DNA of 39,433 nt from positions 1 to 39,433 of the forward strand of contig JAPPIK010000060.1 in NCBI GenBank assembly GCA_028820655.1, read 5' to 3'. Of this stretch, positions 31,824-33,778 are shown piece by piece. Each line of letters starts with the position of its first letter. The first letter of the stretch is position 1. The translations under genes were made by a program, and so were the position numbers. Source of the stretch: Candidatus Poribacteria bacterium. GTDB lineage: Bacteria; Poribacteria; WGA-4E; JAJDTR01. Below the pieces are notes generated by a model, which had not been told where the DNA came from, did not search any database, and saw only the letters and a program-made list of their open reading frames with translations.

Positions 31824-32774
31824 CTACTTCAGCACTTGTTTATCGCCCTGCACGAGGGATTCTACAATTGTGTCTATGTTGTGGCGAACCATTCCGATGT
31901 AGGTGCCCTCAGGCGTCCCCGGATCGCCCATCGCATCTGAGAATAATTGGCCTCCGATTTCTACGCCGAACCCTTGCGATCGGACGGAAGCCTGTACCGC
32001 CTCGATATTTCGTGACGACACCGAGGTTTCAACGAACATCGCGGGAATTCGCCTTTGCACAATAAACTTTGCGAGTTCCTGTATGTCGGCGGTGCCGGCC
32101 TCCGTTACCGTGCTTATGCCCTGCAGACCCCGCACCTGAAAACCGTATGCACGTCCGAAATAGTTGAAGGCATCATGGGCAGTTACAAGCACACGCTGAT
32201 TTTCCGGCACACGTTCTGCTTGAGTCCGAACATATTCGTGAAGCTCATCAAGTTCTGCGAGATAAACCGCCGAATTCCGCCGGTAACTTTCCGAATGCCG
32301 AGCGTCGGTCTCGACAAGCGTATCGCGAACGATTTCGACTGCTCTCTTCCAAAGTGCCACATCAAACCAGACATGAGGATCGAAAGCGCCCTCAAACTCC
32401 GGGGGCGTAAGCAGTATTGATCGGTCGATCCCATCGGTGACGGCGACTGTTTTCACTTGAGTCGACATTCGTTCTAGCACTTCGGCCATCTTGGCTTCTA
32501 GATGCAACCCGTTATAAAAGATGACTTTTGCGCCAGACAGGCGGGACACGTCCCCCGCAGTCGCTTTGTAGAGATGCGGATCAATACCGGGGCCCATGAG
32601 CACCGTCACGTTGACATGACTGTCGCCTACAGCTTTTGTGATATCAGCTATCATGCCAATTGTGGCGACCACATCAAGTTTCTCGCCGCTGTGTTTCTTG
32701 CCTTTTTCCTGTTGGCTGCAGGTCAGGAAAAACACAGTTGAGTTGATTATCATGAAGATTTGAAGTATACGCAT
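31824..32774 (-). CDS. Metal-binding lipoprotein of the ABC importer (TroA/ZnuA-like)
   Basis: A 316-residue cluster A-I solute-binding protein. The short signal peptide ends FFLTC (lipidated Cys 19). The four metal ligands are clear: His67 (GIDPHLYKAT), His134 (FDPHVWFD), His200 (VTAHDAFNYFG) and Asp280 (GGQLFSDAMG). They line up one residue off the His68, His133, His199 and Asp279 of Treponema TroA. A third His in place of Glu is the pattern of Zn or mixed Zn/Mn binders. No His-rich loop is present, unlike classical ZnuA. It delivers metal to the permeases encoded downstream. Its first codons belong to a roughly 104-base unit repeated in tandem upstream. Confidence 0.9.
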   Translation of the reverse strand: MRILQIFMIINSTVFFLTCSQQEKGKKHSGEKLDVVATIGMIADITKAVGDSHVNVTVLMGPGIDPHLYKATAGDVSRLSGAKVIFYNGLHLEAKMAEVLERMSTQVKTVAVTDGIDRSILLTPPEFEGAFDPHVWFDVALWKRAVEIVRDTLVETDARHSESYRRNSAVYLAELDELHEYVRTQAERVPENQRVLVTAHDAFNYFGRAYGFQVRGLQGISTVTEAGTADIQELAKFIVQRRIPAMFVETSVSSRNIEAVQASVRSQGFGVEIGGQLFSDAMGDPGTPEGTYIGMVRHNIDTIVESLVQGDKQVLK

Positions 32775-33019
32775 AATGCAAAGGCTAGTGGGCGGTGCCC
32801 ACCCTACAAGACTGTTCGCTCATGAGAGACCATGAACACGGTGGAGATGGCTATTAGAAAAATTCCAAGTGTACGCATAAGCCAAAGACTGGTGGGCGGT
32901 GCCCACCCTACAAGACGGTTCGCTCATATGGGAGCATGAACACGGTTGAGATGGCTATTAGAAAATTCCAAGTGTACACATAAGTCAAAGACTGGCAGCA
33001 GTGCCCACCCTACAAGACA
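32763..33019. repeat. Tandem repeat (2.5 units of ~104 bp) covering the leader and start of the binding-protein gene
   Basis: Unit starts fall at 32763, 32867 and 32970 (periods 104 and 103). Each unit contains GTGGGCGGTGCCCACC or its remnant (GCAGTGCCCACC), then CTACAAGAC. On the minus strand it reads into ATG-CGT and a signal-peptide-like frame: MRILQIFMIINSTVFFLTC in the real gene, MRTLGIFLIAISTVFM in unit 2 and MCTLGIF-stop in unit 3. The repeats fill the gap between the regulator gene and the binding-protein gene. Confidence 0.75.
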
Positions 33020-33028
33020 AGATTATCT

Positions 33029-33682
33029 TCAGGTTAATCTCACGTAAATATATCCGGCAACTTCCGAGCCGAGAATCTTTTCAGAGTTTTCGCTTCGGAT
33101 GGTTATCGGACCATTGAAAGGTGCCACGTCAAGCACCGTGAACTCTGTTTCCGGGTATAGATTCATCGCCCCGAGATAACGCAGCAACTCCGAATCGTGA
33201 TCGCTCACTTCGACAATAATTCCTTTCTGTCCGGCTTCGAGATCTGTCAAGGTGCTCAGTGCAGGCATCGCGACGGTTCCATCTCGATCGGGTATTGGCG
33301 CACCGTGGGGATCGGCAGTTGGATGACCGAGTATCGCGTCAATCCGATCCTCGAGATCCTCGGATAGAACATGCTCCCATTTCTCGGCTTCCTCATGTAC
33401 CCTGTCCCACGGAACGTTGAGCGCTTCAGCCAGGTAAAGCTCAACCAAACGATGGTGACGTATCACCTCCAACGCAATCTTCTGGCCGGCTTCGGTCAAA
33501 CTTACTCCTTGATAGGGTTCGTAAGCAGCCAGGTTCATTTGCTTTAGCTTTTTCAGCATTCCAGTCGCCGAGGCTGGGGTCACGTCCAAGAATTCCGCCA
33601 AAAGGGAAGTCGTGACCTTATCTTCTCTTTCCGCCAACTTGTAAATTGCTTTGAGGTAATCCTCCACCGCCTGAGTATGCAT
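33029..33682 (-). CDS. DtxR-family metal-dependent repressor (MntR/TroR type)
   Basis: A 217-residue regulator. An N-terminal winged helix (about 1-70, AVEDYLKAIYKLAERE, VTPASATGMLKKLKQM) is followed by a dimerisation and metal domain. The ligand pattern is H77-x3-E81, H96-x3-E100, E103, H104, matching DtxR His79, Glu83, His98, Cys102, Glu105 and His106 with Glu in place of Cys. That substitution is typical of manganese-sensing members. Residues about 145-217 form a FeoA/SH3-like domain (VLDVAPFNGPITIRSE, SEVAGYIYVRL). It heads the importer operon and probably represses it, and itself, when metal is plentiful, using the palindrome at 33731-33752. Confidence 0.9.
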   Translation of the reverse strand: MHTQAVEDYLKAIYKLAEREDKVTTSLLAEFLDVTPASATGMLKKLKQMNLAAYEPYQGVSLTEAGQKIALEVIRHHRLVELYLAEALNVPWDRVHEEAEKWEHVLSEDLEDRIDAILGHPTADPHGAPIPDRDGTVAMPALSTLTDLEAGQKGIIVEVSDHDSELLRYLGAMNLYPETEFTVLDVAPFNGPITIRSENSEKILGSEVAGYIYVRLT

Positions 33683-33730
33683 TGTGCGCCTCCAGCATGT
33701 TTCAACGCCAGTTAGTCTAGCCTATTGATT

Positions 33731-33752
33731 TTATTTAGGCTTACCTAAATAA
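33731..33752. promoter_or_regulatory. DtxR/MntR-type operator
   Basis: Arms TTATTTAGG and CCTAAATAA are perfectly complementary around CTTA. This is close to the TTAGG...CCTAA core of DtxR, IdeR and TroR boxes. It overlaps the downstream edge of the -10 box of the regulator gene, 48 bases before its start, the usual position for repression. A half-site GGCCTAAA lies at 33765-33772. Confidence 0.8.
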
Positions 33753-33778
33753 TATATTATTGTGGGCCTAAATGTCAA
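33751..33778 (-). promoter_or_regulatory. Sigma-70-type promoter of the regulator/importer operon
   Basis: On the minus strand TTGACA (33778-33773) is followed after 16 bases by TATATT (33756-33751). A TATTAT at slightly longer spacing is an alternative. The operator overlaps the -10. Confidence 0.7.

Follow-up and report, generated by a model that had tools for sequence, protein, structure and literature searches.

A tandem array of GTAG-type palindromes and gene starts ahead of a metal-binding lipoprotein gene in a Candidatus Poribacteria bacterium

In bacterial leader peptides and upstream open reading frames (ORFs), a short frame precedes a second cistron and a hairpin separates them. Poribacteria are known symbionts of sponges, and we found no literature that treats them together with repetitive extragenic palindromes (REPs) and REP-associated tyrosine transposases (RAYTs), nor, judging by titles and the openings of abstracts, any description of the locus reported here. 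REPs of the GTAG type have been sorted into the families GTAG-1 to GTAG-24 by PMC3733652, a paper whose main text does not contain the word 'Poribacteria', and PMC2817692 states that RAYT genes always lie between two inverted REPs and that RAYT homologues are lacking from other major lineages. The hairpin at our locus is a GTAG-type REP of about 30 nt, which shares with the elements portrayed in PMC3733652 the GTAG head, the short stem, the 3-nt loop, complementary stem subtypes and high copy number, as well as the use of the head's TAG as the stop of flanking frames and tandem reiteration together with flanking DNA. It differs from that account in that the flanking DNA carried here is the start of a recognisable gene. 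Its head and stem are also nearly the same as those of the RAYT-associated REP GTAGGGTGGGCTTcAGCCCACC of Haemophilus influenzae given in PMC2817692, and RAYTs likewise occur in this genome.

We analysed a window of 39,433 nucleotides, which is the whole stretch of DNA presented above, from a Candidatus Poribacteria genome (G000), and compared it with the genomes of a second species of the same genus (G001) and of a member of the same order (G004). The first-pass annotation had placed two and a half units of about 104 bp before the binding-protein gene, and Tandem Repeats Finder returned an array of that description. The features of the locus are as follows.

31824-32774, minus strand: ZnuA-family metal-binding lipoprotein gene, 316 amino acids (Pfam ZnuA, 268 bits)
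32763-33018, minus strand: the tandem array as a whole, scored 384 by Tandem Repeats Finder, with a period of 104, 2.5 copies and 88% matches
32787-32807, minus strand: copy-1 REP core GTAGGGTGGGCACCGCCCACT, which ends 12 nt 5' of the lipoprotein ATG
32804-32878, minus strand: copy-2 frame MRTLGIFLIAISTVFMVSHERTVL-stop, 24 codons (scripted check against the window)
32891-32911, minus strand: copy-2 REP core, exact GTAGGGTGGGCACCGCCCACC (motif search)
32958-32981, minus strand: copy-3 frame MCTLGIF-stop (direct sequence reading), in which a 1-nt deletion relative to copy 2 breaks the frame
32994-33013, minus strand: copy-3 REP, degenerate, with a decayed 3' arm and no predicted REP hairpin
33029-33682, minus strand: DtxR/MntR-type metalloregulator gene directly upstream on the same strand (Pfam Fe_dep_repress, Fe_dep_repr_C and FeoA)
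33734-33778, minus strand: promoter-like TTGACA-N16-TATATT and palindrome TTTAGGTAAGCCTAAA, the putative promoter/operator of a regulator and importer operon

On the minus strand, the order runs from the stop of the regulator gene through copy 3, copy 2 and copy 1 into the lipoprotein gene. Copy 1 consists of a REP and the true start of the lipoprotein (MRILQIFMIINSTVFFLTCSQQ...), which is backed by alignment from M1 with G001 and G004, and a separate repeat search of the window stretched this copy to 32731. The first ~22 codons of the lipoprotein gene are the source of the duplicated segment. The extra ATGs and signal-peptide-like frames noticed earlier in units 2 and 3 were both read in the sequence, and the TAG that stops the copy-2 frame lies inside the GTAG of the copy-1 REP, 29 nt ahead of the true lipoprotein ATG. 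A hairpin had also been assigned to both units, but the structure GGTGGGC-ACC-GCCCAC(C/T) is intact only in copies 2 and 1 and is degenerate in copy 3. RNA folding predicted the REP hairpin in copies 1 and 2 of G000 and in copy 1 of G001, but not in copy 3, and none of the four 75-76-nt stretches folded was notably more stable than its shuffles (z of -0.24, -0.90, +1.78 and +0.77). Nothing in the window scored above threshold for any Rfam family. The non-REP part of the unit matched nowhere but this locus in G000 and G001, and G001 has a two-copy array with 104-nt spacing at the orthologous place, which together indicate that the array is more than chance. We rejected misassembly, as the copies differ from one another (89% identity between copies 2 and 3) and G001 shows the array in a separate assembly.

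The REP itself is not private to this locus and is dispersed through the genome. Searching G000 for GTAGGGTGGGCACCGCCCACC with at most 2 mismatches returned 103 places (51 forward and 52 reverse), compared with 0 for the reversed control, and the 103 aligned sites gave a consensus that runs from about 2 nt (TT) before GTAG to CTTT after the palindrome. When the 104-base unit served as the query, only its REP part (about positions 1-43 of the query) matched elsewhere in the two genomes. The IUPAC form GTAGGGTGNGCACNGCNCACC was found 144 times in G000 and 142 times in G001 among the 39 genomes searched, occurred 4 times in G014, 3 times in G019 and 7 times in G021, and was absent from the remaining 34. 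The element thus carries marks of a GTAG-type REP, namely a GTAG head with a short palindrome of 20-40 nt, about 100 or more copies per genome with a restricted distribution, and a stem whose pairing is kept through paired changes. At stem pair positions 9/17, for example, 210 distinct sites comprised 132 G-C, 55 C-G, 16 T-G and 1 T-A pairs, with 6 unpaired. GTAG-type REPs are mostly intergenic; those of G000 occur in both orientations, and their position was judged by crude ORF scans rather than gene models. In these scans, a frame of 100 codons or more started within 60 nt downstream of 10 of the 114 REPs sampled in G000 and 7 of the 100 sampled in G001. Among these, the window site lies closest to an ATG in the G000 sample, as does the orthologous site in the G001 sample, and two REPs per sample sit closer to an unverified TTG or GTG start. 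Some REPs form part of a larger dispersed repeat, a few hundred bases in length, that is shared within and between G000 and G001 (L167 and L191; L251, L255, L231 and L238). Further repeated, partly palindromic motifs (TGTAGGAGCGATCTCCAGGTCGCGATTCCC; CACTCCAGCGGAGTG; CAAGCGAGTGGATAGCGA), some of them in tandem, were seen beside REPs at L130, L134, L135 and L137.

Comparison among relatives dates the array. At the corresponding position, G001 carries two units, again spaced by 104 nt, ahead of a lipoprotein that is 83% identical, and in G004 the lipoprotein is 74% identical and has the same N-terminus, with no REP. Across 30 orthologous loci, one per genome, a REP at up to 4 mismatches was present only in G000 and G001, and all 28 loci from other genera were without a REP or a repeat of about 104 bp. 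Unit number, which the first-pass annotation had singled out for comparison, is therefore three in G000 and two in G001, which share the array, and none in the other genera. That annotation had set its proposal against a single-unit arrangement in all relatives, and the repeat is indeed lacking at the 28 loci but not in G001. A copy tree, built on an alignment of about 110 columns from the two species of the genus and G004, separated the copy-2-type units (copies 2 and 3 of G000 and copy 2 of G001) from the copy-1 units with 100% bootstrap and paired copies 2 and 3 of G000 with 96% (91% when the tree was restricted to sequence following the REP). The G004 gene fell beside copy 1 of G000, not outside the genus, with low support (46% and 67%). 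Copy 2 of G000 and copy 2 of G001 are 83% identical, compared with 65-69% for copies 1 and 2 within a species. Because the copy-2-type units of both species group apart from the copy-1 units, the first duplication must have preceded the separation of G000 and G001; the second probably took place in the G000 lineage, unless a third copy was lost in G001. The locus is a known kind of element, a GTAG REP, with the known habit of forming tandem copies with flanking DNA, which here reaches the 5' end of a gene and has been kept across a species split. In two other genera, 63-bp tandem repeats unrelated to the REP occur close to the lipoprotein orthologue (L038 at 1348-1472 and L041 at 2035-2158), and the window contains a 24-nt repeat at 2783-2828 (1.9 copies, 77% matches).

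Arrays of this kind recur elsewhere. We searched a 434-kb sample made up of stretches around 100 of the 103 G000 REP places and 95 of the 142 G001 places, together with the window, L198 and a control stretch (L197). Tandem Repeats Finder, at a period of at least 60 with a REP inside, gave 11 rows at 10 places (L123 and L196 are the same place), which leaves 9 places besides this locus, a count that, coming from a REP-centred sample, says nothing on enrichment over REP-free DNA. The orthologous array of G001 is more diverged and was missed by this program, but was detected by pattern, alignment and BLAST. What distinguishes the array in the window is that the duplicated flanking DNA is a gene's start. 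REPs of one subtype, GTAGGGTGTGCACCGCGCACC, are found singly or in arrays where contigs end or close to such ends (L123/L196 at the end of C48, L192 at the end of C41 and L136 at the start of C49), including an array of three copies with a period of 154 that reaches the end of C48. REP arrays at contig ends may break assembly.

With a probability of roughly 70%, we infer that the array arose by REP-anchored tandem duplication within the leader of the metal-binding gene and is mainly a by-product of REP biology. A GTAG-type REP lies between the regulator and lipoprotein genes and stops a few bases short of the start codon. A segment that begins at the REP head and extends to around codon 22 of the lipoprotein gene was duplicated in tandem before the genus's two known species diverged, with a further duplication in the G000 lineage or the loss of a third copy in G001. 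Each duplication brought an extra start and a frame running towards the next REP, and for copy 2 the TAG of that REP is the stop. Within the presumed operon mRNA, the array forms the leader to the lipoprotein cistron. The position of the G004 gene in the copy tree, beside copy 1 of G000, speaks against this reading.

We also searched for the transposases associated with REPs. Family NF047646 (RAYT) matched above its cut-off at 4 places in G000 (138.3, 134.2, 126.9 and 83 bits) and at 1 place in G001 (202 bits), so that, as in a RAYT-REP system, a RAYT transposase gene is present in the genome. A match over the cut-off was found in 28 of the 39 genomes searched, in contrast to the lineage limit given in PMC2817692. 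However, in a scan of 8 RAYT- or Y1-type places, no RAYT was closely flanked by two inverted copies of the array REP, unlike the arrangement described in PMC2817692, which counts against the by-product reading. Two REP-like copies with 3-4 mismatches lay in the same orientation on one side at L008, one REP copy was found at L179, and the other six places had none at up to 4 mismatches. At L179, the REP (1058) is about 310-330 nt away from an IS200/IS605-type transposase frame (1387-1713). The RAYT gene at L009 is accompanied by two inverted GTAG hairpins of another type (GTAGGT(G/T)CGGTTT..), at 57 (minus strand) and 3240 (plus strand), more than 1.3 kb off on each side.

We also considered whether copy 2 has become a conserved, translated leader peptide, such that ribosomes ending on the REP TAG would open the hairpin and reinitiate at the lipoprotein start 29 nt downstream, which would make the REP a translational gate. 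The layout is that of known leader peptides in having a short frame ahead of a cistron and a hairpin between, but it differs from them in that the frame was copied from the very gene that it precedes and the evidence for its conservation is weak. The 24-codon frame is open in both G000 and G001 and ends on the REP TAG in both, and the other two frames contain stops; however, 15 random substitutions leave the frame stop-free 72% of the time. Differences between the species fall 5/1/9 by codon position over 25 codons (chi-square p 0.04), and by NG86 there are 7 synonymous changes over 18.8 sites and 8 nonsynonymous changes over 53.2 sites (dN/dS 0.33, Fisher p 0.05, permutation p 0.049), a pattern that weakly suggests coding. 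In contrast, the amino-acid changes are no more conservative than random stop-free change (p 0.16). Of the short frames for which the first-pass annotation suggested a test for purifying selection, copy 2 may thus be under weak constraint, and copy 3, with its frame broken by one deletion and its REP stem decayed, looks unconstrained.

The divergence of copy 2 gave a first impression of strong conservation, as 15 of 75 nt differ compared with 44% (397/897) at the 4-fold sites of six neighbouring genes (p about 1e-5), more constraint than expected if the array were nothing but a by-product; this impression was tempered by four other REP sites common to G000 and G001, whose 100-nt flanks, some of them coding, range from 55% to 98% identity. 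Since these flanks vary so widely, the 80% identity of copy 2 is not exceptional and the comparison with 4-fold sites overstates its constraint. The flanks on the two sides are 88% and 98% identical at L160/L245, 84% and 89% at L171/L211, 61% and 55% with many gaps at L182/L250, and 67% and 81% at L193/L246. A looser test had flagged 54 of 115 G000 sites, mostly through short matches to other dispersed repeats, and besides this locus we kept the four sites at which long flanks are colinear to either side of the REP; L148/L229 was set aside, as its flanks align and its REPs are not colinear. The 100 nt at one side of the REP of L160 (~955-1054; L245 ~911-1010) are 98% identical between the species, above the other shared flanks.

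In favour of a leader peptide, the copy-1 hairpin has been preserved through a paired change (GGGC/GCCC in G000, GCGC/GCGC in G001), but across REPs in general both G-C and C-G occur often at that stem pair (132 and 55 of 210), so the change need not reflect selection at this site. In E. coli, REPs within 15 nt of a stop codon reportedly stall ribosomes (Liang et al., 2015, as cited in PMC12306157). By eye, no Shine-Dalgarno-like run precedes the start of copy 2. A leader-peptide function for copy 2 is possible on these comparisons, although we regard this account of the array as unlikely.

Slippage during replication, or unequal recombination, that had nothing to do with the REP and simply took it along within the unit would also produce plain head-to-tail copies of the kind seen here, and small tandem duplications are common. 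The first-pass annotation had offered simple slippage copies as one of its two options, which comes close, but each unit opens with a dispersed GTAG REP, tandem REP arrays recur (at 9 other places in the REP-centred sample), and the first duplication predates the species split. Furthermore, TCT precedes the REP head in four of five units (TCTTGTAG), the exception being copy 2 of G001, which fits a duplication junction there and argues against an origin independent of the REP, as does the description in PMC3733652 of GTAG REPs that reiterate in tandem with flanking DNA. We judge such an origin improbable.

The surroundings of the array bear on how it might act. The regulator matches the NCBIfam models MntR and DtxR below their cut-offs, and upstream of it lie first the promoter-like TTGACA-N16-TATATT and then the palindrome TTTAGGTAAGCCTAAA, which presumably resembles DtxR-family operators. 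Allowing one mismatch, TTTAGG-N4-CCTAAA has a single site in the window, at 33734-33749 (chance mean 0.05). A diverged promoter and palindrome stand at the same place before the regulator in G001, and a similar pair lies directly before the lipoprotein gene itself in G004. The repeated unit might be thought an operator array for the adjoining metalloregulator, given its position between regulator and importer, but when tested this was disfavoured, as the window's only such palindrome precedes the regulator gene and the palindrome that stands out in the unit is that of the REP, which is dispersed genome-wide, so that we hold it to be extremely unlikely.

All promoter-like sites between 32600 and 33800 sit at 33725-33778, upstream of the regulator, with none between the regulator and lipoprotein genes, and the same range contains no terminator-like (intrinsic) site. 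We infer that regulator and importer form one transcript, of which the array would be an internal leader for the lipoprotein cistron. The regulator ATG has GGAGG six bases 5' in both G000 and G001, and, by eye, no GGAGG-like ribosome-binding site precedes the lipoprotein ATG, where the REP ends. Based on the REP hairpin and the lack of a clear ribosome-binding site before the start, the effect of the array is likely to be a modest level of lipoprotein translation.

A bolder version of events, in which a dispersed palindrome captured the start of a gene and duplicated it, and a copy became a kept 24-codon leader that ends on the palindrome's TAG, would have termination at the hairpin gate lipoprotein translation and REP arrays give rise to new upstream ORFs; we consider this quite unlikely. 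If the by-product reading is true, then the locus is a clear example, in Poribacteria-related genomes, of a REP-containing tandem duplication that enters a coding region and persists across a species split. If copy 2 is instead a working leader, then palindromes of this kind could give rise to an upstream ORF and, by the same event, to control of translation.
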